From Clostridiales bacterium (GTDB lineage: Bacteria; Bacillota; Clostridia; Christensenellales; Aristaeellaceae): a stretch of DNA of 64,000 nucleotides. The notes under the pieces are model-generated. The model was not told where the DNA came from. It worked only from the letters and a program-made list of their open reading frames with translations, and did no database searches. Made by a program: the position numbers and the translations under genes. Within the stretch, counting starts at the first letter, position 1. Each line of letters starts with the position of its first letter. The stretch is taken from assembly GCA_012523405.1 (NCBI GenBank), contig JAAYIN010000047.1:32377-96376 (forward strand). Direction: 5' to 3'. This document shows, in pieces, positions 4,945 to 41,854 of this stretch.

Positions 4945-4980
4945 CAGTGGGCACTCCTTATCTGTTGAAATGGATCAATG

Positions 4981-5520: not shown

Positions 5521-5553
5521 GCATGATCCCTCCTTCATTTTAATATTAGTATA

Positions 5554-5629: not shown

Positions 5630-5685
5630 TATCTTTTTATATAAAATGAAAAATAAATAATTTGAAAACAGATAAGATAAAAATG

Positions 5686-5722
5686 AAAAAGCTCATTAGG
5701 ACGCAAAATCCTAATGAGCTTT
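5686..5722 (-). terminator. Intrinsic terminator of the flavoenzyme pair
   Basis: Perfect 14-bp stem (5688-5701 with 5709-5722), 7-nt loop, followed on the minus strand by TTTTTC and further T-rich sequence. Confidence 0.85.
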
Positions 5723-5743
5723 GATGTAATTGCTTGATTTTGT

Positions 5744-6397: not shown

Positions 6398-6834
6398 AGT
6401 GTACCCTTCGCCTCCTTCCAATCCACAAGGAGATTGTAGCTTTTAGTGGTAAAACGGAAAATGCAGTAATTGGGGTCGTCATAGCCGCTGAAATGGTTGC
6501 TCATGCCTGCATACCACATCTCTTTTTTGACTGCGGGGTCTGTAATGATCTCCATCGTGCCAACGAGCGTGATATTGTAGGCACCGTCTTTGTTGAAACA
6601 TAGACTTGCACGATCGCATTTCTCAATGCGCTGCGCCTTGCTGCTGCCAAGCCCTGAGCAAAAGGTGACCCAGTTGATCCCATCTGATTTAGAGGGCGTG
6701 ATGGTTGAAACGGTTGGATAGCCCTCTTGATTGATGAGTGCCAATGCGCAATAGGGTTCAGAGCCATCAGGCGACTGATGGACTGTATTTTGATAGATGA
6801 TTTCTCCAGCTTTTTTGATGATTTCAGTATTCAT
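6394..6834 (-). CDS. Pyridoxamine 5'-phosphate oxidase-family protein
   Basis: Small split-barrel FMN or F420-type protein (146 residues) of the general PNPOx family. The region ALINQEGYPTVSTI followed by WVTFCSGLGSSKAQRI matches the FMN-phosphate-binding strands, and CDRASLCF is the typical middle strand. The family also contains general stress proteins, so the name does not imply vitamin B6 synthesis. It is the first gene of a two-gene unit with the flavin reductase-like gene. Confidence 0.8.
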   Translation of the reverse strand: MNTEIIKKAGEIIYQNTVHQSPDGSEPYCALALINQEGYPTVSTITPSKSDGINWVTFCSGLGSSKAQRIEKCDRASLCFNKDGAYNITLVGTMEIITDPAVKKEMWYAGMSNHFSGYDDPNYCIFRFTTKSYNLLVDWKEAKGTL

Positions 6835-6897
6835 ATGGATTGCACCCCTTTCATATCAATAGGATATCATAGCGATCAGGACAACAGCCTGTCCTGT

Positions 6898-7803: not shown

Positions 7804-7828
7804 TTTTGCCACCTCCATTGTTGATTTC

Positions 7829-7839
7829 ATTATACCATA
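7829..7839 (-). promoter_or_regulatory. Extended -10 promoter of the WYL regulator
   Basis: Minus-strand TATGGTATAAT is an extended -10 with a perfect TATAAT. I see no good -35 at normal spacing. It sits about 25 nt upstream of the chosen start. Confidence 0.55.
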
Positions 7840-7888
7840 GAAACAAGACGGCAGTATGTCGTGTATGGGCGGCTTCATTATTTGGTAC

Positions 7889-7916
7889 AAAAAAACACAC
7901 CCGATCAAATCGGGTG
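7889..7916 (-). terminator. Terminator of the rpsF-ssb-rpsR operon
   Basis: Perfect 8-bp GC-rich stem (7898-7905 with 7909-7916), 3-nt loop, then a run of seven T on the minus strand. Confidence 0.88.
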
Positions 7917-7944
7917 CGCAATTGTTTGCTTTAATCAGCAACAC

Positions 7945-8199
7945 TTATTCTACACAGAAAGGCATCAATGCGATGGCACGAGCGCGCTTGACGGATTCGG
8001 AGAGTTGGTGCTGATGCTTGGCGCAGTTGCCGCTCATACGCCTGGGCATGATCTTGCCACGCTCGTTTACAAAACGACGCAGACGGTTGATATCTTTGTA
8101 GTCGATATATTCGATCTTATCCACGCAGAAGCTGCACACCTTACGGCGCGGCTTGCGACCACGAGGACGAGGCCTTCTTTCGCCACGATCTTCAGACAT
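7945..8199 (-). CDS. rpsR: 30S ribosomal protein S18
   Basis: Small-subunit protein that pairs with S6 on 16S rRNA. The basic N-terminus and [17 protein letters not shown] plus the C-terminal [14 protein letters not shown] are diagnostic. The cysteines (CSFC, and a C with two His downstream) mark the zinc-type form. The start is ATG at 8199 because AAAGGAGG lies 8 nt upstream; the frame can be extended by a TTG without support. Last gene of the classical rpsF-ssb-rpsR operon. Confidence 0.96.
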
Positions 8200-10234: not shown

Positions 10235-13200
10235 CTACCCTCGTATCGGAAAGGTTGCCTCGTGAATGCGTCCGTCATCCATCAGAATGAGTTTGCCGTC
10301 GCGTACCTGCTCGCCATCGATGATCGGGAATGGGCATTCACGGCTTGCGTGCAGGTGGTAGGTGGAGGAACCGTAGAGATAGGTGATGCTAAAGTCATCC
10401 CAATCAGCTGGAACAACGGGTCTGAAGCGAAGCGTGTTTCCGATCTTTTGGAAACCAAATAGCTGCTCGAGCATCACATACTGATACCAGCTTGCACTGC
10501 CTGTATACCATGTCCAGCCGCCTCTGCCGCGTTGATAGGGGTTGGAGTAGATGTCGGCAGCCATGACATAGGGCTCGACGCGGTATCGATTGGAAAGCTG
10601 CTTTGTGATGGCATGGTTGATGGGCAGCATCGCGCGTGCCAGCTCCCATGCTTTGTCGTCCTGCCCGAGCTGATGCAGGGCAGAGATCGCCCATGGTACG
10701 GCATGGCTGTATTGACCGCCGTTTTCGCGCACACCAGGGATGTAGCCTGCGATATAGCCGGGGGAGTCCTGACCGTCAAATGGCGGCGTAAAGAGCTTTA
10801 GAATGCCGATGTCTCGCTCGTATAGCATGCGCCAAGCGTGATCCATCGCAAGCGTGCTTCGGTCCCGCGAGACGCCTGAAAGCACGGCCCAGCTTTGAGG
10901 CAAAATATCAATTCTGCACTCGCTGGAGCTTGCTGAGCCCAGCTTTTCGCCATCGCTGTACCATGCGCGAAGATACCATGCACCGTCCCACGCATAGCGG
11001 TCGATCAGCTGCAAGAGACCCAGCCTGCGATCACTCAAACGCCTTGCGGTGACGGGCTCGCATAGCGGTGCAAATCGGCGCAGAACTTCGCATAGGAACA
11101 TCCCGAGCCATACGCTTTCGCCGTTTTCTCCGCCCACGTTGTTCATGCCGTCATTCCAGTCGCCGCTGCCCATGAGGGGCAAACCATGTGCGCCGACGAA
11201 TACACGATCGATCGCCCTGACGCAATGCTGCCAGAAGGGTTCTTGGATGGTTGAAACCTCAGGTGAACTTAGTCTGTCGTGTTCATTTGTGTCAAGCGGA
11301 CGATCATGTAAATAGGGAACGGATTCACTGAGCAAGCTTGTGTCTCCGGTTACCTGTATGTAAATCGAAGCGATGAATGGCAGGAATAGGAGGTCATCGC
11401 TGATGCGTGTACGTACGCCATAGCGCGGGGGATGCCACCAATGCTGTACATCGCCCTCCTCAAATTGATGCGCTGCACAAAGCAGCAGATGCTGGCGAAC
11501 CAGATGCGGTGCGGTGTGTACCTGTGAGAGCATGTCCTGCAATTGATCGCGGAATCCGTATGCACCGCCTGCTTGGTAGAACCCAGCGCGCATCATCAGC
11601 CTTGCCGCTTGCACCTGATAGGGTAGCCAACGGTTGAGCATTAAGGCAAGCGCGGTATCGGGCAGGTCAAAGCGCATGATGCCTAAGCGCTGTTCCCAGT
11701 GCTGCTTGACGCTGTGAAGGCGTAAGGTTGCACCATCCGAGTGCAGGCTGTCAAGCGACTCGAGCAGAGCCTCGTGCGTCTTGCCAAAGCCTAATACGGA
11801 GGTGAAGGTTTTGCTTTCTCCGGGCTTTAGCTGCAAGGTGAAGCACAGCACAGCAACATTGCCTGCATCGCAGGGCAGAACATCTGAGCTGCTAAGGGCA
11901 GTGGGAACAATGCCCCAAAGTCCGTTGAATGCGCCCGAGCTCATGGTGGTTGTGAGCGTGGCTTCCGGATCAATGCTGCATAGGCAGACCTCGCCGTCAA
12001 CATCTGGATTCTTGGCGAAAATGGTGCCGTCCATGCGCTGCGTTGTGGTCAGCTGCACTGCGGAGGGATGGTTGCCCATGGCAAAGGTGCAGGTGTGGTA
12101 GAAGTCCAGGATGCGGTCGACCTTATCCTCGTTTTTCAGATGAAGTACACGAATGCCAAGCGTTGACTCCTCGTCGGTAAAGCAATGTAGCCGTCCGTAT
12201 ATGCCATATCCCGACGTCTCGTAGATGGTCTCGCCCGGTGCATGGGTGATGCGTGCGGGAAGACCGTGCCCAAGGGGGAAGCGAGTGATCGACCAGAGCA
12301 GCTTGTTGGTGCCATCGCGTATGAAAAAGCACTCATCACTGCGCGGCATGACGCTGTCATTGTACCAGTGCGTCAGCCTGCCAGAATGGCTGTTGCCCGT
12401 ATAGGAGAAGATCGGACCGCTCTCGCCTGCAAGTGTGCCAAAGTCATCTGTGCACAGGGGATTGCACCATGGCGCGGGGGTTTGGCGTCCGGGAGGCAAT
12501 GTGATGATGTAGTTACCATCTGCTTTGGAAAATCCGCCATAGCCGTTATCAAAGAGCAATTCGTCGATGGCTGGCAATGCGACTTTCCATGCGGTTGATG
12601 GTTTGCAGGCATATTCCTGCTTGGACTTAACGGAGTAGGAAAGGGCTTTAATTTGATCATCAATCGACCCTTGCCCTGTCGCGAATACAGCTCTTGCAGC
12701 AGCGCGCAGCAGACCGAATAACTCGGACGATAGGTTTTCACGATCAAAGAGGTGAATGCCGCCCGCTTTGCCAATCAGCTCATGGCTGTGGCTTGTTTGT
12801 GCAAGGTCGTCAAGGGCATCGTGCAGCGGATGATCGTAACCTGCGGGCTGTTTGCAGATCATGACCAAATCAATCCATAGTCCGCTCATGCGATAGTAGG
12901 CATGTGCTTTGAGCAGCAGCTTGACCAAGGACAGTTCTTTCGTATCTGCGCATTCGACCAGTAAAATGGGGAGGTCGCCGCTGATGCCAAGTCCCCATAA
13001 CTCGCGAAGCGGCAAATTGGTTTGCCCTGCATATCGGAATTGGAAAGGCTGACCGGTGTATGAGAGCATACCGCTCAGGCGCGAAACCGAGGCTTGCATG
13101 GTGGCGGACAGCCCAAGATATCTTGCTGTGACCAGCCCTTGGGTGAGCGCGGGCTCGTAGCAGCGGAGTGCGTTTTCAGGCTGCACATAGCGCTCGTGGA

Positions 13201-16200
13201 ATGCTGCGGGTGTATCCTGAGGGGAGGGGAGCAAGGTCGCAAAGACGAACTGTGCCTTGCTGTTGGCGGGCAAAACGAATTGTCCCCGAAGGCTCAGGCA
13301 TGGCTCGATCATGTCACCGATGGTATCCGCCATCGCGCTGATAGGCAGATCAAGAACCCTTGGCGCATAGAGCGTGCGTCCCCGCCCGATAAACGAGGTG
13401 CGGTCTGTATGCGTATGAAAGACGGTGAGGCTGGCATCGGTTGAGAGCATATGCCAAAGGCTTTGTACCTCATCGCTTTCTTTGCGCACACGGCGCTTTG
13501 CACAAACACCATATTTGTGCAGCTTCTCGGTTTGTATGAAGAGGTTTTGGAAGCTGGGATGTGCGGCATCATCCTTTTGAGAGGTGAGGGTGGGTTCAAG
13601 GTAGCTGCATATCTCAAGCATCCGCTCCATATTGGAGTTGTTTTGAAGGGTGAGATGATGCAGCACGGTGCCGTCCAATGGATTCACAAAAATGCGAAGC
13701 GTGCTCTGCATCGAGAAGCGCTCATGGGAAAAGACAGCTTGGGCGGTTTCATAGGACACCGTTTGATTGAGTTTTGGATCGGTCACGCTCCAATAGGAGC
13801 CGCTTTGAGAGTCGCGGAGATAGAGCCGCATCCCCGATGGAACATGGCAGCTTTCATGAAAGCGGGTCATCATGATGCCGTTTCGGCTCATATAGCCCCC
13901 GCCATGTGCATCCACAAGCAAAGTTGTACCCGCACCATGCAATACATGCGCATCGATTGGGAAGTGGAGCGATGCGGCGGTGCGCTGAGAGTGGAGGGGG
14001 GAAATGGTGGATTCATTTGCAGCTTTTTTCAGCGGATGCTTGATGATGTTCTTGCTTCGCTGTGGTCTCTCTTCCAGCAGCAAGCGGTATGCCTGTGCAC
14101 GCGGAAGCTGTGAGAACAGATTGGCGATGTAGTTGCCTGAGAGGGCGTTGCATATGGCGCACATGATCATGCCCTGATGGTGTGCCATATGGCTGCGGAC
14201 GACTTGAAAAGACGCCTTGTCGCCAATGCGGTCAGGTTCAAAATCCGCTGCTTCAAATAAGCCCATTGGACTATCCATACCCAAGGATTTAAGCTTTTGC
14301 AGGTTGGCGAAGGCACTCTTTAGGTCGATGGGCATGGAAAGGATGGAGGCGTATGGCGCGATGACATTTTGGTTTTTCACCGTGTCAAGAGCGAGGGACG
14401 GTATGCCAAACGCCCTATACTGATAATAGAGATTCGGATCAAAGGCATAATACCCGCTTTCGCTTACGCCAAAGACACCCTGCTTTTGGTAGCTTTGCTG
14501 TTCGCGAAGCGCATTTTGGCAAGCTTCATACAGCAGCGTGCCGCGAACGGGCGGCTGAAAGAGCAAGGGCATCATGTATTCAAACATAGTACCGGTGTAG
14601 CTCAGCAGCGTTTGTCCATGCTTGGTTTGCGCCATAGAGCGCCCCAGACGATACCAATGACGGACGGGGATTTGCCCTAGCATGATGCTGACAAAGCTCA
14701 GCAAGCGCGCCTCACTTGCCAGCAGATCATAGTGGGTATGGCGTTCTGCATTTTCCTCGGGATGCAAACCGATGTAGAAAAGCTCCGCATCCGGGTCAAA
14801 GAGCGGCGTGAAATCCATGTGATCGACAATAGCATCAATGCGCGCGGCAAGATCGTGATGCTTGATCGGAAGCTCAGCCATCAGCACGCGTATGCCCTGC
14901 GCGCATGCGAGCAGGCAGACGGCGAAGTTGCCGCTGTCGACCGAGGACACAAAATGCGGACGCATCGGCGCGAGCGTCTGCGTGTCATGCCAGTTGTATA
15001 TATGCCCTTTCCATTTCGGCATTTTCTCAATGCTGCTAATGGTGTCGCTGATGGACTCTGCCATGTCATCGGTTGGCAGGATGCCGAGCTTTTGCGCGGA
15101 TATCAGGGACATCAGGTAAAGACCAATATTGGTTGGCGATGTACGGTGAGAAATGCCCTTGTTTGGCTCGATCTGAAGGTTGTCGGGCGGAAGTGCATGA
15201 TCATCTTCTGTGATCGCGGTCTGAAAGAATGAATAGGTGCTTGAGGCGAGGCGGGTCAGTTCCTCGCGCATATAGTCCGTGATGCGCTGCGTGCGGTGAT
15301 AAGGCTGCTCCAAATAGGGGAGCACAAACGGAAACGACGCCCAGTAGGCAGCCGCCAAAAGCCCCATGATGAAGCTTTTGGGAATCAGTAGTGCGATGAG
15401 GAGCATCACTGCTGCGGTTACCATGAACTGATAGAAAAACAGCATGGGCGGTCTGCCGGATGGCTCGGAGAGCTTTGCGGCAGTTGTCCACTGCAATAGA
15501 TTTCTGCGGGTGAAAAGCATACGGTAAAGCGAACGGAAAATGGCATCCGCTTGCATCGCGGCCTCGCAGGGCAGCACGGCAATGCGTACCAGCGTGGAGG
15601 CAAGGGCGGTTTTGGTTGGGGGAATCAAGCTCGCAATCTCAGGCAGAAGAAGCGCTGCTAGAAATAGCCAGTATGTGCCCGTGACAGCTGCATATACAAG
15701 CAGGATCAGGCGCATGGGCTGCACGAGGCTGCGGAAGATATTCTGCCAAATCTTATGCTTGCTAACGGCGGAGAGAGAGGTGTTTTTTGCTTGGCTTGAT
15801 GCGGGGAAAATAGGCAGTAGATAGGGCAATAGCTGCCAGTCGCCGCGTGTCCAGCGATGCAGGCGATAGCAAAAGCCCTTTAGATTTTTCGGATGTCCGT
15901 CATAAAGCGTGATATCCGATGCAAGTGCACACCCCGACAGCTCGCCTTCCAGCAGATCATGGCTGAGGATGGCGGAGGGAATGATGCAGTCATCAGTAGC
16001 GCTTAAAAAGCCGGAAGGATCGATGATTCCCTTGCCGCAAAATGAACCATGGCGGTATGCATCATGGTAGTAATCGGTGGTGAGCGAGTTGTAGGGATCG
16101 GTGCCTCCGCGTCCGCCCATGAGCAGCGATAGGTAGCTGCCAACATTATGCGCGGCCACTTCCATGCGGGGCTGCAAAACACTGATGCCGCGCATGGTTC

Positions 16201-18067
16201 CATGGAGCTCCTGCCTTTTTTGCAGGGGATGCAGCATTGCCCCAATCATGCGAAGCGCACTTCCCGGGGGCAAAATCGTATCGCTGTCAAGGGTGATAAC
16301 GTAGCGATACATGCCTTTGAGGCTCTTTGGATCGACGGAAGCATAGGTGAAGATCTCCTCGATTTCTCTGCCGTCAATCAGCTTGAGGAGCGTTTCCAGA
16401 CTTCCGCGTTTTCTTTCGCGGCTTGTAAACAAATGATCGTGCGGATTGAACGCCCGCTGGCGCTGCATGTACATGAAGGGGTGGCTGGTGTTTTCTTGCA
16501 GGGCTGCGATGGCAGCGGCAGCCGTCCCAACGATTTCATCATCGCCTGAAAGCGTGCCTGTCATGCTGTCCTGATAATCGCCTAGCAGCATAAAATGCAA
16601 GTGTTCATCAGGGTTTGCCTGATGCAGGACAGAAAGATGCTTGACCATGGATAATGCGTGATCGCTGCTGAGGAGCATGGTGGGGCAAACGATCAGCGTT
16701 TTGTCGCTCGCGTCAAGCGACTCAAGGCGAATGCGAGGCACGAGATGCGGCTTGATCAGCCGCCTTGATAGCCAGAGGACGCATTGCTGCGCTGCGTAGA
16801 GAAATACAAATGCAAAGGGAAGCCAGAAAACAGGCATGATATCAAGCCAATATGCAAGTGCAATCAGCGCTGCGAATCCAATCCATGACCCGAAGCGGAA
16901 CAATCCGCAGGCGTGCTCTGATAAAAAGAAGCGCATGCGGTTGGAAGCATTCATCGCCTGTAAGTACAGAAACAAAGAGGCCTGTCCGTTATCGAGCAGA
17001 TAGTAGCCGACATGCCCTCTGATATCGCCTTCGCCAGCACTTTGGCAAAGCGAGAATGCAGCTGAACAGACGGATAGTTCCGGCTTATTTGTTTGTACGC
17101 TAATGCGTGCGATCCGCTGGCGATAATAAGAGCGGCTTTCCATATCCATGCTCGGATAGGTTGCATCTTGTGATAGCGCGGCATGCAGAGGGCTAAAGTC
17201 CTCGAGCAACCGATGCCATGGCATACGGGCAACGCTGCGAAGCGATGTGATCGCATTGCTGACCCAAAGACAGTTTTCAGTCTGGTGATCATGCTCACTT
17301 TGAGCGAGCTTTTGGGGCGAAAGGTCATGTTCGTTGAAATATCGATCCAGCCAGACAGTACGCCCTGTATCCTCTTGCGTGCGCGATTCTGTGATCATGC
17401 GTTCAAGGAATGCAGGGCTATGCTCGTATTTGGTAAACAAGCGGATTGCAGCACGCTCGTGCTTTTGCCGAAGCAAACGCCCGACCTGCTGAGCCGCGAG
17501 CTGGGATTGCTGCTCGCTTGCGCATTGCTCTGCCATTTCGCAAATGATGTGAAGCAGAGCTGTGCGCAAAGCGATAGGCAGTACGCCCATCTCCTCTACC
17601 GTGAATGGCGTGACCTTTTGCCATGCGGCAACCGCATCCTGAAGTCTGGATGTGCGCAGGTCGGCATTGGTATGACCGATGAGCTCCTTTGCGAACTCAA
17701 AGATTCTCGCTTCGCCTGACAAGGATTTTGGAAGCTTGCGTGCGCCTTTGACGCTGACCATGAGCGAGGCGGCCTCCTCCTGTAGAAAGCGTCCGTTGTC
17801 ACTAAGCCATTTTGAGGCAGGCAAAAGCTCGCCTGAAGGCAATCGATTAAAATAACCGATTGTTGTTTCAAGCGTCCTGAGCATGTGGGAAGAAACCGTG
17901 ATTGCCGCATTGCCGCGGCTTTCCGCACGAGCTGCGATTGTGCCAAGGTGCGGGAGTAATTCATCCTCCAAGGGAGCGTCGCGATAGGATGAGGATGCAG
18001 GCCGATGAGCACCCCATGCCAGAACAAACAAAATCGCGAGCCCGACCACCGAAATAATCCATTGCAT
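10235..18067 (-). CDS. Giant cyclic beta-1,2-glucan synthase-like protein (GT84 + GH94 type)
   Basis: Membrane enzyme of 2610 residues with the layout of NdvB/ChvB-type cyclic beta-1,2-glucan synthases. A short N-terminal anchor (1-20) and soluble region precede membrane segments near 390-445, 784-812 and 874-912. The cytosolic glycosyltransferase module has the DxD-type ITLDSDT near 594 and the product-site motif HRWTRGDW near 738. A glucoamylase-like module follows (RTSPTNIGL near 977, then SSVDSGNFA). The C-terminal third is a GH94 phosphorylase-like module with GDWNDGMNN near 2300, whose Asp is the catalytic acid in GH94. GGAGG lies 8 nt before the ATG. Known relatives polymerise UDP-glucose and set chain length by the GH94 part. 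Linkage and product here are inferred. Single-gene transcription unit. Confidence 0.85.
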   Translation of the reverse strand: MQWIISVVGLAILFVLAWGAHRPASSSYRDAPLEDELLPHLGTIAARAESRGNAAITVSSHMLRTLETTIGYFNRLPSGELLPASKWLSDNGRFLQEEAASLMVSVKGARKLPKSLSGEARIFEFAKELIGHTNADLRTSRLQDAVAAWQKVTPFTVEEMGVLPIALRTALLHIICEMAEQCASEQQSQLAAQQVGRLLRQKHERAAIRLFTKYEHSPAFLERMITESRTQEDTGRTVWLDRYFNEHDLSPQKLAQSEHDHQTENCLWVSNAITSLRSVARMPWHRLLEDFSPLHAALSQDATYPSMDMESRSYYRQRIARISVQTNKPELSVCSAAFSLCQSAGEGDIRGHVGYYLLDNGQASLFLYLQAMNASNRMRFFLSEHACGLFRFGSWIGFAALIALAYWLDIMPVFWLPFAFVFLYAAQQCVLWLSRRLIKPHLVPRIRLESLDASDKTLIVCPTMLLSSDHALSMVKHLSVLHQANPDEHLHFMLLGDYQDSMTGTLSGDDEIVGTAAAAIAALQENTSHPFMYMQRQRAFNPHDHLFTSRERKRGSLETLLKLIDGREIEEIFTYASVDPKSLKGMYRYVITLDSDTILPPGSALRMIGAMLHPLQKRQELHGTMRGISVLQPRMEVAAHNVGSYLSLLMGGRGGTDPYNSLTTDYYHDAYRHGSFCGKGIIDPSGFLSATDDCIIPSAILSHDLLEGELSGCALASDITLYDGHPKNLKGFCYRLHRWTRGDWQLLPYLLPIFPASSQAKNTSLSAVSKHKIWQNIFRSLVQPMRLILLVYAAVTGTYWLFLAALLLPEIASLIPPTKTALASTLVRIAVLPCEAAMQADAIFRSLYRMLFTRRNLLQWTTAAKLSEPSGRPPMLFFYQFMVTAAVMLLIALLIPKSFIMGLLAAAYWASFPFVLPYLEQPYHRTQRITDYMREELTRLASSTYSFFQTAITEDDHALPPDNLQIEPNKGISHRTSPTNIGLYLMSLISAQKLGILPTDDMAESISDTISSIEKMPKWKGHIYNWHDTQTLAPMRPHFVSSVDSGNFAVCLLACAQGIRVLMAELPIKHHDLAARIDAIVDHMDFTPLFDPDAELFYIGLHPEENAERHTHYDLLASEARLLSFVSIMLGQIPVRHWYRLGRSMAQTKHGQTLLSYTGTMFEYMMPLLFQPPVRGTLLYEACQNALREQQSYQKQGVFGVSESGYYAFDPNLYYQYRAFGIPSLALDTVKNQNVIAPYASILSMPIDLKSAFANLQKLKSLGMDSPMGLFEAADFEPDRIGDKASFQVVRSHMAHHQGMIMCAICNALSGNYIANLFSQLPRAQAYRLLLEERPQRSKNIIKHPLKKAANESTISPLHSQRTAASLHFPIDAHVLHGAGTTLLVDAHGGGYMSRNGIMMTRFHESCHVPSGMRLYLRDSQSGSYWSVTDPKLNQTVSYETAQAVFSHERFSMQSTLRIFVNPLDGTVLHHLTLQNNSNMERMLEICSYLEPTLTSQKDDAAHPSFQNLFIQTEKLHKYGVCAKRRVRKESDEVQSLWHMLSTDASLTVFHTHTDRTSFIGRGRTLYAPRVLDLPISAMADTIGDMIEPCLSLRGQFVLPANSKAQFVFATLLPSPQDTPAAFHERYVQPENALRCYEPALTQGLVTARYLGLSATMQASVSRLSGMLSYTGQPFQFRYAGQTNLPLRELWGLGISGDLPILLVECADTKELSLVKLLLKAHAYYRMSGLWIDLVMICKQPAGYDHPLHDALDDLAQTSHSHELIGKAGGIHLFDRENLSSELFGLLRAAARAVFATGQGSIDDQIKALSYSVKSKQEYACKPSTAWKVALPAIDELLFDNGYGGFSKADGNYIITLPPGRQTPAPWCNPLCTDDFGTLAGESGPIFSYTGNSHSGRLTHWYNDSVMPRSDECFFIRDGTNKLLWSITRFPLGHGLPARITHAPGETIYETSGYGIYGRLHCFTDEESTLGIRVLHLKNEDKVDRILDFYHTCTFAMGNHPSAVQLTTTQRMDGTIFAKNPDVDGEVCLCSIDPEATLTTTMSSGAFNGLWGIVPTALSSSDVLPCDAGNVAVLCFTLQLKPGESKTFTSVLGFGKTHEALLESLDSLHSDGATLRLHSVKQHWEQRLGIMRFDLPDTALALMLNRWLPYQVQAARLMMRAGFYQAGGAYGFRDQLQDMLSQVHTAPHLVRQHLLLCAAHQFEEGDVQHWWHPPRYGVRTRISDDLLFLPFIASIYIQVTGDTSLLSESVPYLHDRPLDTNEHDRLSSPEVSTIQEPFWQHCVRAIDRVFVGAHGLPLMGSGDWNDGMNNVGGENGESVWLGMFLCEVLRRFAPLCEPVTARRLSDRRLGLLQLIDRYAWDGAWYLRAWYSDGEKLGSASSSECRIDILPQSWAVLSGVSRDRSTLAMDHAWRMLYERDIGILKLFTPPFDGQDSPGYIAGYIPGVRENGGQYSHAVPWAISALHQLGQDDKAWELARAMLPINHAITKQLSNRYRVEPYVMAADIYSNPYQRGRGGWTWYTGSASWYQYVMLEQLFGFQKIGNTLRFRPVVPADWDDFSITYLYGSSTYHLHASRECPFPIIDGEQVRDGKLILMDDGRIHEATFPIRG

Positions 18068-28906: not shown

Positions 28907-30454
28907 CTAGTTGAGCATGGGGAAGAACAGCCCGCGCCAGTAGATTTCACCTGTGAAGCCATCAAATTGCTTGTTGTTTACGAAAATGCAAACATTCTTG
29001 ATCTGTTCATCTGTACAGAGCGTATTGACGATGGCATAAGCCAGAAAACGCTCCTGCTCGGCGGTCATAGCTGTACCGATGTCTTGGAAAAGCGCAGAGA
29101 AGTTGGCGATCAAAGTATTGCCTGATATCGATAGACCTAGGATGTCTGAATCCTGAAATCCATTCGAAGGCATAATGGCAGTAAGATCAGCAACGGTATC
29201 GTAACTCATAGGTCCTTTTGCCAGCTCAACAAGCAAAGTGCGCGGGTTATGCTGCTGATAATACGCAATGGGGCGCATGGTTTTGGTGAGCTTGGAGGAG
29301 GTGCTGTTTGCGAAATAAAGTGTGCAATAATCATATAGCATGGTTGCAAAATTGGAACGCTGCTGTATTCCATCCTCAAAGGTCATTTCAGAATCAGACC
29401 CATCTGTCGGCGTGATCGATTCAATAGCGGATGAACCGATTTGCACCTTGATGCCGGCAACGCTTGGGAAGAATGTGCACAGCGTGTAGCACATGGAGGC
29501 CATGCTCTGAGCGCGCGTCAAGCCATATCCCGTGAGCATGCCATCAAGGTTATGGGCAAAAGTCAGAGAAATGATCTCGCCTCCTGCTGCCTCTGAATGG
29601 TTGATGGTGGGCTCGATGGTAAGCAGATCGGCAAGAAGGGGGAGCGCGGGAGAATCGATGTCTTGCTGAGGACCTAGCGCAAGCTCTTGAAGCAATGAAA
29701 TCACCATGTCAGCTGTTTCCATGCTTGAAAATGAGCAGGTGCGAACTTCGCTCACCATACCGCCTGTTTTAGCGATGGGGAAGTACAGGGTCACGTTGGT
29801 GGAGAGGCGCTTATCGCTGGCTTCTTCATCGGGCTGAATGCGATTGGAAAAGAGCTGCTCATAAACGGCATTGATGTCAGTGCCTACGCTTCGGCTAAAA
29901 GTCCCCATCGGTAACGTGTTTGACACGTCAATGCCAACGGGCTTATCCGCAACCAGCACGTTGACGTAGCTGATTTCCGGCAATTCGGTGATCGTGTTTG
30001 TGATCGCCTGGCATACGTTATAAAGTGCCTTGCGGCTTAATTGGAGCGCTGAGCCTGATAGGTTGACCGTCGCCACGTCTCGGCTGACCTCCACAGGACT
30101 CACGCCGTACATGGATAGCTTTACAGAGCCGCCTATCGAACTGACAACCCCATCACCCGGATAGCTCAGCAGCGCCCGAAGCAGGCTTTCAGCGCTTGGG
30201 CGACCTGGCGAGAAGGAAACCTTTGAGGTGATAGCTGCCAGCCTTGTGCCATCGTGACGAGGCAAGTAGAGCGTAGCCGGTTTGTCATATTCCAGTGCAG
30301 CGTCGCCGATGGGCGGTACATAGCTGATAAATGCAGGGGGCAGGGTATAAAGCGCCTCGGACTCGGTGATTGGCATGCTGTTATCGGCGCAGGAAGAAAG
30401 CGCAAGCATTGATGCGCATAACAATGATATCAGAACCTTATGCTTTGAATGCAA
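28907..30454 (-). CDS. Lipoprotein with three tandem GerMN-like domains
   Basis: Exported lipoprotein of 515 residues: signal peptide with lipobox LSSC (Cys22). Three GerMN-type alpha/beta units can be traced by their repeated strand-helix pattern: about residues 60-195 (LLRALLSYPGDG, NVLVADKPVGI), 215-345 (ISLLQELALGPQQ) and 365-510 (LLVELAKGP, NVCIFVNNKQF). GerMN modules occur in spore germination protein GerM and in actinobacterial LpqB. It lies 15 nt downstream of a second GerMN lipoprotein and in the same operon as a two-component system. A role in envelope sensing or signalling is inferred. Confidence 0.82.
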   Translation of the reverse strand: MHSKHKVLISLLCASMLALSSCADNSMPITESEALYTLPPAFISYVPPIGDAALEYDKPATLYLPRHDGTRLAAITSKVSFSPGRPSAESLLRALLSYPGDGVVSSIGGSVKLSMYGVSPVEVSRDVATVNLSGSALQLSRKALYNVCQAITNTITELPEISYVNVLVADKPVGIDVSNTLPMGTFSRSVGTDINAVYEQLFSNRIQPDEEASDKRLSTNVTLYFPIAKTGGMVSEVRTCSFSSMETADMVISLLQELALGPQQDIDSPALPLLADLLTIEPTINHSEAAGGEIISLTFAHNLDGMLTGYGLTRAQSMASMCYTLCTFFPSVAGIKVQIGSSAIESITPTDGSDSEMTFEDGIQQRSNFATMLYDYCTLYFANSTSSKLTKTMRPIAYYQQHNPRTLLVELAKGPMSYDTVADLTAIMPSNGFQDSDILGLSISGNTLIANFSALFQDIGTAMTAEQERFLAYAIVNTLCTDEQIKNVCIFVNNKQFDGFTGEIYWRGLFFPMLN

Positions 30455-30469
30455 GACCGTTCCTCCCTT

Positions 30470-31447
30470 TTAACGTGAAATCAATTCGAGTAATGCGGAA
30501 TATGAAATCTTCCAAACGCCATTTTCAAGCTGCAACTGCAGAGGATAGGCTTGCGTGTCAGTGCTGAGCCCTTCCCTGAGGGTTGTCATGGTAAGGGTGA
30601 GCGTTGCATGCGTGCCGCTTTGGGAAATTGATCCGCTGCTGACGCTGTACTCGGAAAGCGTGGAGCAAGCATCAACGGTGTTATGGTAGATATCATAAAT
30701 CGGCCGCGATTCATCGCTGCTCTGCATGGCGGTATAAAGATAGAGCGTTTTGTAGTCGCGCTGCTGCCATGCTTGAAGAATGCACTGAGCGGTGTTGTGC
30801 GGGGTGAGAAGCAAGGATTCGTTTCTGAGGAGCGGATCACTCACGCCGCCTTGACCTGTTAGAAAATAGGTGTTTTCAAGGCGTGTGCTCGTGGTGGAAT
30901 CAGCCGATTGACTGACGAAGAACTGAACGCCGGTATACGGCATGCTTTCGGTAATGGAGGCAACCACACTTTGCAGTGCCAGCTTGCGAAGCAGGGGGGC
31001 TTCGTCTGCCCAATCGGAGCGACTTTGCCAGTCGCTCGGGATGCTGTCATTATCCAGAAGTGCGTCGTTAAATGTGACGTAAAGGACGCCGTTTCTGGCG
31101 CTTGCACTGATGACGCGCACTGAATCCGAAAAAAGCTTTTGCAGGTCAACGTGGCTTGCTGAGGGACCCGCGAGCAATTCTTCAATCAGTATCAGTTCAA
31201 AGCTCTTATCGCGGTCCACCGTGATCACGCGGCTTTCGGCGGCTAGCATAGGCTGATCTAAATAGCGAAAGTAGAGCGTCGCGATTACGTCATCCACATT
31301 GGTGGTAGATGCAGCTGCGGGATATACTTCCATCGATAAACCGGGCGCAGCAGTGGTTTCTGCCTTTTCAATCGGGCTAATCACGGAGCAGCTGCAGAGC
31401 ACTAGCAGAAGAATGACTAGCAAGGAGAGTAGCATGGGGCGTTTCAC
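30470..31447 (-). CDS. GerMN-domain lipoprotein
   Basis: Exported lipoprotein of 325 residues. The start is GTG at 31447 because AAGGAGG lies 8 nt upstream and 13 nt separate it from the kinase stop; the longer ATG frame overlaps the kinase without a ribosome site. The signal peptide ends in LVLCSC, with Cys18 or Cys20 as lipid anchor. A single GerMN domain spans about 45-190 (LILIEELLAGPS, VLYVTFNDALL). The C-terminal part (QAWQQRDYKTLYLYT to the end) resembles an NTF2-like fold. It sits between the histidine kinase and the triple-GerMN lipoprotein. Confidence 0.82.
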   Translation of the reverse strand: MKRPMLLSLLVILLLVLCSCSVISPIEKAETTAAPGLSMEVYPAAASTTNVDDVIATLYFRYLDQPMLAAESRVITVDRDKSFELILIEELLAGPSASHVDLQKLFSDSVRVISASARNGVLYVTFNDALLDNDSIPSDWQSRSDWADEAPLLRKLALQSVVASITESMPYTGVQFFVSQSADSTTSTRLENTYFLTGQGGVSDPLLRNESLLLTPHNTAQCILQAWQQRDYKTLYLYTAMQSSDESRPIYDIYHNTVDACSTLSEYSVSSGSISQSGTHATLTLTMTTLREGLSTDTQAYPLQLQLENGVWKISYSALLELISR

Positions 31448-31460
31448 TTTGGCATCCTCC

Positions 31461-33005
31461 TTACGCTTGATGAATGGGCAGTTCGACTGTGAATGTGGAG
31501 CCTTGTCCTTCTTCGCTGTCAACCGATACATTGCCGCCGTGCATCAGCACCATCTGGTGCACAATGCTCAGACCAAGTCCTGTGCCGCCTGTATCGCGGC
31601 TGCGGGCCTTGTCCACGCGGTAGAAACGGTCAAAGATCAAGGCTTGGTCTTCCTTTGGAATGCCTGGTCCTGTATCTGAAACGGTCAAAATGGCATCTCT
31701 GCCAGAGCGAATGAGGCGCACGCGGACAGTGCCGCCTTCGGGCGTGTATTTCAAAGCGTTGTCCATGATGTTGTATACAACTTGGGTTAGCTTCGCAAAG
31801 TCTGCGTACATCTCGCATCGGTCACCAAGCTGCACCTTGATCTCCTGCTTGCGCTTTGTTGCCATGGGCTTTAGGCGCTCGACAGAATCGGAGACGAGCT
31901 GGGAAAAGTTAAAGGTGGTGCGGTTGAGTCTGAGCGTTTTGGAGTCCATGCTGACTAGCGCGAGCAGGTCGCTGATGATGAGATTGAGGCGATTGATTTC
32001 CTCATTGACATCTGTTAGGAACTCGGTTCGAAGACCTTCGTCCATCTCGGGCTGGTAAATAATGCTCTCAAGCAATATCTTCATTGTGGCAAGAGGCGTT
32101 TTCAGCTCATGGCTTGCGTTTGATACGAATTGATTACGGCTCTTATCCAGCATTTCAAGTTTTTCTGACATGGTATTGAAGGTCTCGGAGAGCTTGCGAA
32201 GCTCACCGCTGCCGCGCACGGGTACACGCACCGAAAGATCGCCGCGGCCCATCCGCTGTATGCTGCGGGTGAGGGAGGCGATGGGGCGCGTGATGATGCG
32301 GGAGAATACCAATGCAATGATCAGTGCAGCAGCAGCTGCGATTAGGAAGTAAAAGACCATCTGATCCTGCAATGTAAACAGACGCTCCATCATTTCCTGA
32401 ATGGGCGAGGCAAAAATGAGCACACCAATGGTGATCCCGCTTGTTGTGAGTGCAGAGGTAGCGTAGCCCACCCACTCGGAATTTTGATCGTAGGGACGCA
32501 AAAAGCGCAGAACACTATTGGTCTGCTCGCCAGTTGTGGTTTTATGAACACCATAATCAATGGTTTTACCGGATACGAGGATGCTGAGAACCTCGGGTAA
32601 TTCAACTCTTGAGCCGTTGAGCTCTGAAAAACTATCCGCTTGTACCTTGCCGCTTAGGTCAAGAACCATCATGCGGCCACCCAATTCGCCGCTAGCGACT
32701 TCCAAACGCTGCTGAAGGGCATTCATTTGACCCGATGCATAAAGCGGAGCGAGCTCGACCGATAGCTGTTCGGTGTTGGCTCTATCCTGCTGCATTCGGG
32801 CATCGAATAAATAATCGCCCACCAACCCAATCAGCGAGGTCGCTACTGCATAGTAGCTGACCCCTACGATGAGTAGGAAGGCGAGTAGTATTTTCCAGCG
32901 TATGGAGGTAAAGGGATTATTAATCCTTATCCGTGAAATAATAACCCACTCCCCACTTTGTGAAAATAAACTCAGGCTGAGTTGGATTGCGTTCAATCTT
33001 TTCAC
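31461..33005 (-). CDS. Membrane sensor histidine kinase
   Basis: Sensor kinase partner of the OmpR-type regulator. Domains in order: TM1 about 38-58, an extracytoplasmic sensor of about 130 residues, TM2 about 190-212, HAMP (RPIASLTRSIQRMGRGDLSVRVPV), HisKA with SNASHELKTP, and HATPase with N, G1 (DTGPGIP) and G2 (GTGLGLSIVH) boxes. The layout resembles WalK or MtrB without a PAS domain. The start is unclear: the frame has no ATG before TM1. GTG at 33005 would overlap the regulator by 86 nt with no ribosome site, while ATT at 32942 has GGGGAG 6 nt upstream. Confidence 0.9.
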   Translation of the reverse strand: MKRLNAIQLSLSLFSQSGEWVIISRIRINNPFTSIRWKILLAFLLIVGVSYYAVATSLIGLVGDYLFDARMQQDRANTEQLSVELAPLYASGQMNALQQRLEVASGELGGRMMVLDLSGKVQADSFSELNGSRVELPEVLSILVSGKTIDYGVHKTTTGEQTNSVLRFLRPYDQNSEWVGYATSALTTSGITIGVLIFASPIQEMMERLFTLQDQMVFYFLIAAAAALIIALVFSRIITRPIASLTRSIQRMGRGDLSVRVPVRGSGELRKLSETFNTMSEKLEMLDKSRNQFVSNASHELKTPLATMKILLESIIYQPEMDEGLRTEFLTDVNEEINRLNLIISDLLALVSMDSKTLRLNRTTFNFSQLVSDSVERLKPMATKRKQEIKVQLGDRCEMYADFAKLTQVVYNIMDNALKYTPEGGTVRVRLIRSGRDAILTVSDTGPGIPKEDQALIFDRFYRVDKARSRDTGGTGLGLSIVHQMVLMHGGNVSVDSEEGQGSTFTVELPIHQA

Positions 33006-38161: not shown

Positions 38162-39187
38162 TTATTCAGGCTTGATCAATGTTTCAAAGCCCTCTGTCAT
38201 GAGGGTTGTGCCATCCATGAGCGTCCACATGGCTTCGGCATCGTCGATGCTTTCAATCAATGTCCTGCTTTCTTCATAGGGGAGAAGAAAGGCGATTGTT
38301 GACAGGAAATCGGACAGCCCCGAATCGGGGTGAACGATGGTGACGGCGTGCATATAATCAGCGGGATATAGGGTATCGGGATCGATGAGGTGATGATATC
38401 GCTTTTCGTTCACTTCATAGTATCTTTGGTAATCGCCGCTGGTCACTACTGCTTTGCTTGTGATGAGCAGCTTTTCCTTGGTGGTCACCGCATCTAAATC
38501 CTCGACTGCGATTGTCCATGAATCTCTGCCATCAAGCGGTGCATCGCCGCATACCACATTGCCGCCCGCATTGATGAGAAACGAGCAGAGTCCTTCGCGC
38601 CTTAGTTCCTGTGCAACGAGTTCAGCAGCGTAGCCCTTAGCAACAGCGCCAAGATCGAGCTTGATGAGTGGGTCTTCAAAGTAAATCGTTTGTGCCTCTT
38701 GGTCAATGATCACTTGATCAAAGTTCATATGTTTTGCTGCCTCATCAAGGGCTTCTTGACTTGGCAGGGAACTGCCTTCTTCACGTGCATCATGCCACAG
38801 CGTAAGCACGCTGCCCATTGCGGGGTTGAGCTTTTCGCCGTACTGTACGCGCCATTCCTTGATGAGCAGCAGCAAGTCGATAAGCTCGCTCTCTGCCGCA
38901 ACTGGCGCATTGCCTGCGTTTTTGTTGACATAATATAGGTTGTTAACACCTTCATAGGGGTAGTATAGATCGTAAATTCTATGATAGCGTTGCATCTGAG
39001 ATTCAGTAATCTCGGCATAAATGTCAAATTCTTCTTGGTCATGAGTATACCCAGTGAGGGTGACGATTGTGTCAAATGTATTGAAAAAGTAATGTCTAAA
39101 TTTGGAATAGGTCACTGCTTCTTCCGCTGCGGTTACGGATGATAATAGCATAACGATTGCTAAAGCAATCAAAAGTATACGTTTCAC
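38162..39187 (-). CDS. apbE: FAD:protein FMN transferase (flavin transferase)
   Basis: Exported enzyme that moves FMN from FAD to a Thr in extracytosolic FMN_bind domains. 341 residues from GTG at 39187 (AGGTGA 5 nt upstream; a GTG three codons earlier is possible). The signal peptide ends near SVTAA with no lipobox. Family motifs: LDLGAVAKGYAAE, INAGGNVVCG, SGDYQRYYEV, and DSGLSDFLST. One deviation is DPDTLYP where the family usually has DPxTGxP. The next two genes upstream encode likely substrates, so the cluster looks self-contained. Confidence 0.92.
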   Translation of the reverse strand: MKRILLIALAIVMLLSSVTAAEEAVTYSKFRHYFFNTFDTIVTLTGYTHDQEEFDIYAEITESQMQRYHRIYDLYYPYEGVNNLYYVNKNAGNAPVAAESELIDLLLLIKEWRVQYGEKLNPAMGSVLTLWHDAREEGSSLPSQEALDEAAKHMNFDQVIIDQEAQTIYFEDPLIKLDLGAVAKGYAAELVAQELRREGLCSFLINAGGNVVCGDAPLDGRDSWTIAVEDLDAVTTKEKLLITSKAVVTSGDYQRYYEVNEKRYHHLIDPDTLYPADYMHAVTIVHPDSGLSDFLSTIAFLLPYEESRTLIESIDDAEAMWTLMDGTTLMTEGFETLIKPE

Positions 39188-39214
39188 AAGGATCACCTGC
39201 GTTTCATATAAAAA

Positions 39215-39248
39215 TAGAAAAGGGGCTGCCCCACTGGGACAGTCCCCA
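39215..39248 (-). terminator. Terminator after the small FMN_bind-like gene
   Basis: GC-rich stem (39223-39229 with 39241-39248, one bulge), then TTTTC and more T on the minus strand. It lies before apbE, so apbE is either read through at reduced level or has its own promoter. Confidence 0.7.
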
Positions 39249-39262
39249 TTTTTACAAGAAGA

Positions 39263-39763
39263 TTATTTTGCGCTTGCAGCAGCTTCGCTTAGTGCTCCGA
39301 AGATATCATCAACAGTGATGGTGCAGCCAGCCTGAGCGTCAGCGTCAGTTGCGAAGTTTGCAACAACTTCTTCAACGGTCTTGCCAATGCACCAGTCTTG
39401 TAGAGCAACGATCTGCTCGTTAAGTTCTTTGCCAATGGGGCTTGCAGCTCTCATAGCATAGTCGTCGCCTTTTTCCATCTTGGAACGGCCATCAGCTTCT
39501 GCCATGTCAGCAACTTCGCCAGCGACGGTTACAGCGATTTTGGGGGACTGTTGAACGTCGATTAGGATGGTAGCGATTTTGCCATCAGCATCGAGAGTTA
39601 CAGCAACAACAGAAGTGTTAACTTGGATGGAGCCATCCTTCTCGGTGGTAGCGGAAGATGCGGAGATAGAGCTAATCATGCCTAGACCCATGGTATCAGC
39701 CATAGCTGAGGTCAATCCGAGGCAAAGGGTAAGAACCAAGATGATCGATACGATTTTCTTCAT
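39263..39763 (-). CDS. Small secreted FMN_bind-like protein
   Basis: Secreted protein of 166 residues with a signal peptide ending SAMA. It has a repeated short alpha/beta pattern (VTLDADGKIATILIDVQ). Near the C-terminus is DAQAGCTITVDDI, which lines up with the IAGATITTDAV flavinylation motif of the neighbouring five-site protein but with Cys in place of the second Ala. The Thr that would carry FMN is kept. I read it as a divergent FMN_bind domain and possible ApbE substrate. Whether it is really flavinylated is inference. AGG-rich ribosome site upstream; own consensus promoter. Confidence 0.75.
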   Translation of the reverse strand: MKKIVSIILVLTLCLGLTSAMADTMGLGMISSISASSATTEKDGSIQVNTSVVAVTLDADGKIATILIDVQQSPKIAVTVAGEVADMAEADGRSKMEKGDDYAMRAASPIGKELNEQIVALQDWCIGKTVEEVVANFATDADAQAGCTITVDDIFGALSEAAASAK

Positions 39764-39789
39764 TTGAGAAAACCTCCATACATTTAATA

Positions 39790-39841
39790 GTGGTTATACC
39801 ACACTTCAAACAATTATAATGCTTCGTGAAAGAAATGTCAA
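39790..39841 (-). promoter_or_regulatory. Consensus promoter with adjacent palindrome
   Basis: Minus-strand TTGACA (39836-39841), 17 nt, TATAAT (39813-39818): a perfect sigma-A promoter. Just downstream of the expected start point lies GTGGTtatACCAC (39790-39802), a likely repressor site. The strength of this promoter suggests an abundant product. Confidence 0.8.
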
Positions 39842-39890
39842 AGCTTTTACGTGCGTTTGTTTATATACATTGCGAATTGATCCAAATGAT

Positions 39891-39941
39891 AAAAAAAGAA
39901 ACTGGCACAAACCCATACGCAACAAGGGATGTACCAGTTTC
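39891..39941 (-). terminator. Terminator of the five-flavin gene
   Basis: Stem 39898-39905 with 39934-39941, extended by inner GGG/CCC pairing, then a run of seven T on the minus strand. Confidence 0.8.
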
Positions 39942-39979
39942 AATGAAATTCGTGGTAATTGATGGTTTGTGAATAATGA

Positions 39980-41854
39980 TTACTTTACAGCTTCATAAAT
40001 CTTATCCATGGAAGCCACAAGCGCCTTGGTTGTGATGGTGGCACCAGAGTATGCATCAATATCTTCCAAAGCGATGGGCAATGTCTTGCCAACGAACTGC
40101 GATTGGAAGTCGGGCTTGAGAACCTTGTCGCCCAAGTATTCAGTTTCGTCGAAGCGATTGTCGCCGATTTCGATCTCGCTGATAGTGAGACCATCCAGCA
40201 CGAGCTTTACAGCGACAGGGCTCTGGAAGCCCTTGGAAGCAGCGCGCCATGCGCCGTCATCGCCAAGAGCCGCAGCGTCGGGATCAACGGTTGCTTCAGG
40301 CTCAGCTACCTCAGCATCTGGGTTAGCAGCCATATAAATCATATCAACAGCGGAAAGCACTGCATCGGTTGTGATGGTTGCGCCTGCAATGCCATCAATG
40401 TCGCTTGATGCAACAGGAAGGGCTTTGCCAACAAACTGGCTTTGGAAATCAGCTTCAAGAGCTTTTTCGCCAAAATACTCAGTCTCTGCAAAACGATTGT
40501 CGCCGACTTCAAAGGATGTGATGGTGTAGTTGTCGTCCATTTCCAGCTTGACGGCTACAGGACCAGCGAAGCCCTTGGAAGCAGCGCGCCATGCGCCGTC
40601 ATCGCCAAGAGTCGCAGAGTCGTCAACTTCTTCGGTAGCCAAAGTTGCGACAGCAATGGGCTGAGGCTCATCCTCTTCATCATCGCTTGCATATTTGTAG
40701 ATCGCGTCGATTGATTCAAGGACAGCATCGGTAGTGATGGTTGCGCCTGCAATGCCATCAATATCATCAACGGTTACAGGTAAAATTTTGCCAATGAATT
40801 GATCCTGGAAATCAGCTTCAAGGGCTTTTTCGCCAAAGTACTCAGTCTCGGCAAAACGGTTATCACCGATGACGATGGACTGAATGGTCAGTGCGTCATC
40901 AAGCTCAAGCTTCACAGCTACAGGACCAGCAAAGCCATCAGCTGCTGCGCGCCATGCGCCGTCTTCGTAGAATTCAGCCTTGGTGCCTTCTTCCACAGGT
41001 GCCTCTGCGCCGGTCAACTGACCGAATGCAAGGTTCACAGCATTCACAACAGCCTTGGAAGTAACGGTTGCGCCAGCGATGGCGTCGATATCGCTAAGTT
41101 CCAGAGGAGGAGTCATGCCAATGAACTGACCATAGAAGCTTTCGTCAAGCGCAGCTAGACCATAGCCAGCAGTTTCATTGAAGTAATCATCGCCAATGAC
41201 GATATCGCTGATGGCATTGCTGTCGTCAAGCTCAATGGACACAGCGACAGGACCTGCAAAGCCCTGTGAGCTTGCGGTGTTGGGCGATCCGCCGCCGGCT
41301 AGATCGGCAATATACTTGCCTGCAAGGTTGATGCCGCCATTGACAGCCGCAGATGTACGCGTTGCGCCTGCAATCGAGTCAATGGTGTTGTCAGCCTGAG
41401 GTGCGCCGGGTTTAATCAGCGTCAAAGGAGCATGCTTGCCAATGTATTGGTCAGTAAATGCGGGTTCTTTGGCTAGTGCGCCAAGCCCCGGTGTTTCGGA
41501 GAAGTTTTCTCCGCCGACGTTCACGCCGATAATATTTGACTCCATGTCAAGACCAAGTGTTACAACAACATCACCGGCATAGCCGTTAACGGTTGTTTGG
41601 ATGACATAACCAACGTTGTTGCCATCGGCATCAAGACCCATAAAGCAGCTATCCATTCCGCTGCTTTCACTAAGCTCGACAGCCTCAAAGGTGGCGGCGG
41701 TTGATAACATTTCCACGCGGGTTTGCTTCTCGGCCAAGACTTTGTTTTCCGCGATTGGACCAACGGTTAATTGGTTAGTAATGGCGAGCGCAAGGGCAGC
41801 AACTAAGCAAATTACTACCAAAATACCTAAATCACGCAGGGACTTCTTGTTCAT
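39980..41854 (-). CDS. Membrane-anchored protein with five tandem FMN_bind domains
   Basis: Exported flavoprotein of 624 residues. The N-terminus (hydrophobic 9-27, then NQLTVGPIAENKVLAEKQT) resembles RnfG/NqrC, a single anchor with the body outside. Five FMN_bind units follow, each ending in the ApbE target pattern Dx(I/Y)(A/S)GAT: modified Thr expected at 165, 263, 372, 493 and 606. Unit 1 (about 83-180) is of RnfG length; units 2-5 (about 195-275, 304-385, 426-505, 543-620) are shorter and alike, joined by acidic, Ala/Pro-rich linkers. AGGAGG precedes the ATG. Likely an extracytosolic electron carrier. Partner oxidoreductases are not in this window. Confidence 0.9.
   Translation of the reverse strand: MNKKSLRDLGILVVICLVAALALAITNQLTVGPIAENKVLAEKQTRVEMLSTAATFEAVELSESSGMDSCFMGLDADGNNVGYVIQTTVNGYAGDVVVTLGLDMESNIIGVNVGGENFSETPGLGALAKEPAFTDQYIGKHAPLTLIKPGAPQADNTIDSIAGATRTSAAVNGGINLAGKYIADLAGGGSPNTASSQGFAGPVAVSIELDDSNAISDIVIGDDYFNETAGYGLAALDESFYGQFIGMTPPLELSDIDAIAGATVTSKAVVNAVNLAFGQLTGAEAPVEEGTKAEFYEDGAWRAAADGFAGPVAVKLELDDALTIQSIVIGDNRFAETEYFGEKALEADFQDQFIGKILPVTVDDIDGIAGATITTDAVLESIDAIYKYASDDEEDEPQPIAVATLATEEVDDSATLGDDGAWRAASKGFAGPVAVKLEMDDNYTITSFEVGDNRFAETEYFGEKALEADFQSQFVGKALPVASSDIDGIAGATITTDAVLSAVDMIYMAANPDAEVAEPEATVDPDAAALGDDGAWRAASKGFQSPVAVKLVLDGLTISEIEIGDNRFDETEYLGDKVLKPDFQSQFVGKTLPIALEDIDAYSGATITTKALVASMDKIYEAVK
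40226..40611. repeat. Direct DNA repeat inside the FMN_bind array
   Basis: A 44-nt stretch at 40226-40269 recurs without change at 40568-40611 (period 342 nt, 114 codons). It encodes the linker-to-domain junction LGDDGAWRAASKGF of units 4 and 5. A second imperfect repeat joins units 3 and 4 at a period of 363 nt. Such identity points to recent in-frame duplication of units. Confidence 0.85.

Follow-up and report, generated by a model that had tools for sequence, protein, structure and literature searches.

The window analyzed here is a 64,000-nucleotide stretch of a Clostridiales bacterium genome (GenBank assembly GCA_012523405.1, contig JAAYIN010000047.1, positions 32,377 to 96,376). The subject of this work is a minus-strand gene within it for a membrane-anchored, RnfG-like protein of 624 amino acids with five FMN_bind units (delimited by its open reading frame (ORF), Pfam and TIGR01947), and the relationship of this protein to the Rnf complex of the same genome. 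In minus-strand order, the gene (41854-39980) is followed by one for a 166-residue protein (39763-39263) and then by apbE (39196-38162), which thus lies two genes downstream.

The 624-residue protein begins with a membrane or stalk helix (residues 3-49; 41708..41848, on the minus strand like all features of the window given below), which was present in an AlphaFold model and aligns with the N-terminal part of solved RnfG. Unit 1, of the RnfG type, spans residues 79-183 (41306..41620) and contains Tyr92, Lys148 and the target Thr165 (codon 41360-41362). It is followed by unit 2 at residues 186-281 (41012..41299), with target Thr263 (codon 41066-41068), unit 3 at residues 295-390 (40685..40972), with Thr372 (codon 40739-40741), unit 4 at residues 416-511 (40322..40609), with Thr493 (codon 40376-40378), and unit 5 at residues 530-624 (39983..40267), with Thr606 (codon 40037-40039). 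An earlier annotation made from the DNA letters without searches (the sequence-only reading) had placed five ApbE target motifs at these threonines. The positions proved exact and the motifs intact, namely DSIAGAT (165), DAIAGAT (263), DGIAGAT (372), DGIAGAT (493) and DAYSGAT (606), each ending in the target threonine, and the protein matched Pfam FMN_bind (PF04205) in five stretches, as many as had been predicted (whole-protein expectation value (E) 4.5e-55, 184.7 bits).

All five target threonines were invariant in an alignment of 25 sequences, and in the model each opened the final helix of its unit. The model consisted of a long hydrophobic N-terminal helix and five separate beads, with a mean predicted local distance difference test (pLDDT) score of 77 and a predicted template modeling (pTM) score of 0.42, at which the single domains are usable and the arrangement of the beads is not. 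The extracytosolic location of the protein is a prediction. A profile of the unit found 852 units in the 120 listed homologues (of 481 found), with 5 to 9 per protein; SGAT, AGAT or TGAT was present in 840 of the 852, and six further units had NAT-type sites that retain the threonine. Within the 624-residue protein, units 3, 4 and 5 shared 60-74% identity with one another, compared with 27-39% to unit 1, and the tail therefore seems, from sequence comparison, to have grown by internal duplication.

RnfG likeness of the first unit

The first ~180 residues of the 624-residue protein gave the near-full-length alignment that is characteristic of RnfG, covering both the N-terminal helix and the FMN_bind domain. 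Residues 9-179 aligned with RnfG of Acetobacterium woodii (9eri_G, E 1.5e-20) and residues 5-187 with that of Clostridium tetanomorphum (7zc6_G, E 1.4e-19). The sequence-only reading of an RnfG-like anchor joined to four extra flavin carriers was thus borne out, unit 1 matching solved RnfG nearly end to end. A Foldseek search with the whole model returned the A. woodii and C. tetanomorphum proteins first, followed by NqrC and Azotobacter vinelandii RnfG and then by a CbFMN4 domain; the TM-scores to the two best PDB chains were 0.73 and 0.77, by target length. The TIGR01947 rnfG model scored 168.7 bits against the whole protein (cut-off 102), a sum to which several units contribute.

Thr165 aligned with T185 of A. 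woodii RnfG, and Tyr92 with Y113. In A. woodii, strains carrying RnfG Y113A or T185A failed to grow, and the variants showed no activity once purified (PMC11889175). Lys148 of unit 1 lies in a loop common to the solved RnfGs. In NqrC, K207 holds the flavin phosphate (PMC12174285), and the Lys148 loop would correspond to the K207 position according to the alignments made here.

The rnf genes of the genome, the genus and the family

The sequence-only reading had treated the cluster as self-contained and had implied that Rnf was absent. The second point does not hold once the entire genome is considered. RnfD, RnfE and RnfA were first located by searches of the organism's own genome on contig 67, where rnfC-rnfD-rnfE-rnfA-rnfB form a locus without rnfG, each of the five encoded proteins scoring above its NCBIfam cut-off (TIGR01943-01948 models); a genome without Rnf is thereby ruled out. 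The rnfD and rnfE genes overlap by 4 bases (a shared ATGA), with no room for G between them. The 624-residue gene is unlinked to these rnf genes, and its homologues are linked to theirs in several other genera.

It could be that the G gene was lost from the rnf contig by an error of assembly or binning, as the genome is in 130 contigs (96% complete). This explanation has a negligible probability, because the overlap of rnfD and rnfE lies inside one contig and the junction recurs. RnfD was present in 16 of the 17 genomes of the genus (genomes are given below by G numbers and loci by L numbers), and in all 16 rnfD was directly followed by rnfE, with the 4-base overlap in 15; in G191 the gap was 85 bases with a script-chosen start. 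An assembly artefact is refuted for the genus by this repeated direct junction. In addition, no FMN_bind units were found in the fetched rnf loci of the genus, including 3.5-5.4 kb upstream of rnfC; the locus of G106 ends at rnfA and that of G208 is split over two contigs.

The long RnfG-like form was found in eight genomes of the genus, all of one clade (100/99). The complete long genes encode 3 units (G159), 5 (the present genome), 6 (G221), 7 (G126) and 8 (G191), while those of G144, G227 and G233 are cut by contig ends. The long gene is followed by apbE in five of the eight, namely the present genome (after the 166-residue gene), G191, G221, G126 and G227, the last with the gene end on another contig, before apbE. 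In G159 apbE was found on another contig, and the loci of the remaining two end too early. A one-unit protein was found in six other genomes of the genus, adjoining apbE in G057 and G181. The long and the one-unit forms occurred together in none of the 17 genomes, as would be predicted if they were alternatives for a single role. Five genomes of the genus that lack the long G (G171, G084, G013, G215 and G181; loci L102, L100, L101, L097 and L096) encode an RnfD with a large insertion, in ORFs of 428-704 amino acids (first possible start), and no known Pfam domain scored above cut-off in these insertions.

Three other FMN_bind proteins exceeded the search threshold in the present genome, on contig 91 (180 residues, secreted-looking), on contig 124 (596 residues) and on contig 90. 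The contig-90 protein has two units, a hydrophobic N-terminal helix (by eye) and an RnfG-like first unit, and the whole protein scored 103.7 bits against TIGR01947, above the cut-off of 102. Another interpretation is accordingly that this protein is the G subunit of Rnf and that the 624-residue protein serves as a further multi-flavin wire, with Rnf or a different membrane donor as its electron source. This is unlikely, on four grounds. First, the contig-90 protein matched solved RnfG more weakly (4.5e-14, compared with 1.5e-20). Second, its type occurs beside either the long or the one-unit form in several genomes and so is not their alternative. Third, four long-form genomes of the eight (G126, G144, G191 and G227) encode a shortened relative of it, a protein of 160-207 residues with an anchor and one unit that has lost the RnfG-type first unit, so that no RnfG-type candidate other than the long protein was found in them. 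Fourth, the seven two-unit proteins of this type form a clade (99/99) of which none lies in an rnf operon, unlike multi-unit proteins resembling the 624-residue protein.

Outside the genus, 57 rnf loci from 56 genomes were compared (G001, with two rnf loci, being counted twice). The G gene was located between rnfD and rnfE in 12 (1-8 units), before rnfC in 15 (within 1.5 kb, with 1-9 units seen) and downstream in two, and none was shown in 28; unit counts are lower bounds for genes at contig ends. Eight of these 28 have at least 1.5 kb upstream of rnfC and were called G-less; the other 20 have less and were not counted as such. The five G-less genomes of the eight that were examined further (G008, G014, G024, G026 and G048) all encode an unlinked protein of 3 to 9 units with apbE within 2.3 kb, in G014 on the opposite strand. 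A scan of contigs with the single 624-residue sequence returned two loci, in each of which rnfD and rnfE flank a gene for an FMN_bind protein. In G178 (L173, G178:C96) rnfC-D-E-A-B-apbE-G form one run, the seven-unit G being cut by the contig end, and this order is a possible intermediate of G relocation. In G066 (L170, G066:C29; features at 963-2516 and 4634-8068) RnfD is fused to an FMN_bind domain within the rnf operon, which ends with a 1144-residue protein of three FMN_bind domains and a cytochrome c552 domain; this locus was labeled downstream in the location survey although its RnfD carries the fusion.

In a tree of the N-terminal part, the three G locations required 5 changes, compared with a mean of 19.8 in shuffles, which indicates that location is clustered on the tree and nothing beyond; the label "unlinked" is doubtful for G178, whose gene lies downstream within the rnf run, for G066, where it belongs to the operon, and for G009, where it is at the end of a contig. 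One-unit and multi-unit proteins were mixed in several clades, so that the multi-unit tail seems to have arisen more than once in the family. In a tree of the Rnf core, the genus grouped with the G-less G014 (100/99).

These data bear on whether the cluster stands apart from Rnf. An extracytosolic flavin cluster independent of Rnf would be fed by a quinol or NADH (reduced nicotinamide adenine dinucleotide) dehydrogenase, as in flavin-based extracellular electron transfer, and would form a wire across the wall. As the sequence-only reading had stated, no rnf or ndh2 gene was seen by eye beside the cluster among the ORFs at 30-50 kb of the window; apbE is near, and the model has separate beads like other multi-flavinylated proteins (PMC11334425). 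However, the Rnf operon of the genome lacks exactly the subunit that the 624-residue protein resembles, homologues lie in rnf operons and unit 1 is of the RnfG type. A displaced and expanded Rnf subunit therefore fits better than a stand-alone cluster, for which we see about one chance in ten, and the description of the cluster as self-contained was not upheld.

Candidate acceptors and proposed role

One secreted-looking protein with FMN_bind and FAD_binding_2 domains, of the flavocytochrome c type, was found in the present genome; it is the 596-residue protein of contig 124 (L015, 8114-9904, minus strand). The two domains occurred in one frame in 9 of 9 genomes of the genus with an anchored protein of at least three units (the eight long-form genomes and G106) and in none of the other 8 (Fisher p 4e-5). 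Six of these 8 had no FAD_binding_2 match at E <= 1e-30, and the two proteins concerned in G084 and G200 had no FMN_bind domain by eye. In the wider set, the median number of extra FMN_bind domains was 1 in 15 one-unit genomes and 4.5 in 20 multi-unit genomes (Mann-Whitney p 0.0007, relatedness ignored). This test used genomes with a complete G gene, from 300, with contig-end G genes and G192, G066, G100, G200 and G215 left out, and its totals are lower bounds where 18 candidates were scored.

It could also be that the four extra carriers serve as a store of flavin or electrons, or as an oxygen buffer, and not as a route by which electrons reach an acceptor. The units of a tandem can have a redox potential in common, an example being SaFMN3, by which oxygen is reduced as well (PMC10339131), and among the 120 listed homologues the number of units ranges from 5 to 9. 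The genus-wide co-occurrence of the multi-unit form with secreted-looking FMN_bind and FAD proteins speaks against a store, as does the fusion of the multi-flavin protein at the end of the G066 rnf operon to a cytochrome c552-type domain, and this explanation is considered improbable.

The 624-residue protein is probably the RnfG of an Rnf complex otherwise without G, its gene relocated near apbE and its four added carriers passing electrons to secreted reductases. ApbE would flavinylate all five threonines, and unit 1 would dock on RnfA/E and on RnfD as a shuttle, keeping the normal path. Electrons would leave Rnf through units 2-5, on linkers, and the acceptor would be a secreted flavin reductase; these last two steps are the least certain. 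A wall-crossing wire formed by the four-carrier tail is possible. A broader proposal, which we hold at somewhat below even chances, is that in a lineage of anaerobes Rnf has been split into a fixed rnfC-D-E-A-B core and a free G arm of variable length encoded near the transferase gene, the gain and loss of beads on the mobile G converting a ferredoxin:NAD ion pump into an adjustable outlet for ferredoxin electrons to secreted flavin reductases.

Several observations weigh against the assignment of the 624-residue protein as a relocated RnfG. The first 189 residues alone scored 93.6 bits against TIGR01947, slightly under the cut-off of 102, so that the assignment rests on the structure matches and Tyr92. 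Neither the contig-90 protein nor the one-unit proteins of the genus have the lysine loop, and most G proteins encoded between rnfD and rnfE lack it too, which makes Lys148 weak evidence. The contig-90 protein is a second RnfG-like protein in the same genome, the two-unit type was the only RnfG candidate found in G200 and G215, and G106 encodes a two-unit and a three-unit protein that are both of the contig-90 kind by best match (the latter was for this reason excluded as a third alternative for the same role). The N-terminal tree does not fix the position of the clade of the 624-residue protein relative to the in-operon proteins. With regard to the acceptor, the eight genomes without the reductase form one clade of the Rnf-core tree (in which G233, having no RnfD, is absent) and the distribution of the long form calls for one or two origins, so that the effective sample for the association is small; G042 and G034 have three and four linked units and no further FMN_bind domain. 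Co-transcription of the 624-residue gene with apbE is doubtful, as described below. Finally, genes for ndh2, eetA/B and demethylmenaquinone were not seen by eye among the ORFs at 30-50 kb of the window, no profile search for them having been run on window or genome.

Neighboring genes and comparison with known systems

The sequence-only reading of a flavin transferase near the 624-residue gene was confirmed. The protein is ApbE, the FAD:protein FMN transferase (FAD, flavin adenine dinucleotide; FMN, flavin mononucleotide), with a match to PF02424 at 1.3e-62 and an N-terminal hydrophobic, signal-like stretch (by eye), and its gene was the only apbE found by a search of the genome. The neighboring 166-residue protein, which had been taken for a small secreted FMN_bind-like protein, is secreted-looking and at most a remote relative of FMN_bind. 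It scored 14.8 bits (cut-off 22), 4 of 17 scanned members of its family matched FMN_bind at E <= 1 (best 0.0022), profile comparison gave a probability of 8%, and its model had no match at E <= 0.001 in a fold search of the PDB. The 17 rows of the family carry AGCT in place of AGAT, and Cys125, Cys147 and Thr148 are invariant in them. An ordinary ApbE substrate was ruled out by this motif, the weak scores and the lack of a fold match; the protein may be a distant FMN_bind relative that lacks flavin and bears thiols.

A consensus promoter, TTGACA-17-TATAAT (39813..39841, a 12-of-12 pattern match), lies upstream of the 166-residue gene and suggests transcription apart from the 624-residue gene, and a terminator-like site lies 5' of apbE. 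Both speak against a single operon of the three genes, although the pattern evidence is weak. Elsewhere in the window, the minus strand encodes a 2610-residue protein with glycoside hydrolase 94 and glucoamylase-like domains (10235-18067), which we take to be cyclic beta-glucan synthase-like, and two adjoining proteins with Germane (spore germination) domains (28907-31531), next to a sensor kinase-like ORF (by eye).

Rnf is a major energy converter in anaerobic organisms, and its usual depiction is a closed route from ferredoxin to NAD. With an extra flavin chain on RnfG, this pump would have an outlet, and extracellular respiration driven by ferredoxin could then proceed in the absence of both cytochromes and quinones. 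Complete genes with 1, 3, 5, 6, 7 and 8 units form a natural series in one genus, in which the role of length can be tested directly. Surveys based on gene neighborhood would miss an unlinked G gene, and Rnf sets of this kind appear incomplete.

In the Rnf complexes described so far, RnfG moves as a shuttle between RnfD and the iron-sulfur cluster of RnfA/E (PMC12174285, PMC11889175). The 624-residue protein shares with solved RnfG (9eri_G, 7zc6_G) the N-terminal helix, the FMN_bind domain, the target threonine and the flavin-contacting tyrosine, and differs in its four further units and in a gene that is unlinked from rnfC-D-E-A-B and near apbE. Its unit 5 (residues 537-617) matched the structure of CbFMN4 domain 1 (8p2b, E 0.0017). 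CbFMN4 and SaFMN3 are multi-FMN proteins of largely unknown role, and the passages describing them name no RnfG unit (PMC10339131). The 596-residue protein of contig 124 resembles the FMN_bind and FAD fumarate or urocanate reductase-like enzymes (PF00890 with PF04205) and is a candidate acceptor; an enzyme of this kind is terminal, unlike the 624-residue carrier.

The closest precedent is the report in 2021 by Meheust et al. of RNF clusters with multi-flavinylated RnfG, for which a further way out of Rnf, toward extracytosolic acceptors, was proposed (PMC8238504). The same work mentions a multi-heme RnfG for Christensenellales, which the FMN_bind-cytochrome c552 fusion of G066 recalls (PMC8238504). 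Those RnfGs were found through the Rnf gene neighborhood (PMC8238504), whereas the present gene lies apart from an operon that itself lacks G; on our own reading, the rule applied there (RnfB within the flavinylation cluster) would not assign the present case to RNF. Two published lists of rnfCDEAB make no comment on G where the genes are listed, and searches of the open-licence literature yielded no description of an Rnf operon without G alongside an unlinked, expanded G. Multi-flavinylated proteins, and multi-flavin RnfG inside Rnf clusters, are already known (PMC8238504), and the apparent novelty lies in an rnf operon lacking G that is matched by an expanded G encoded elsewhere, near apbE.

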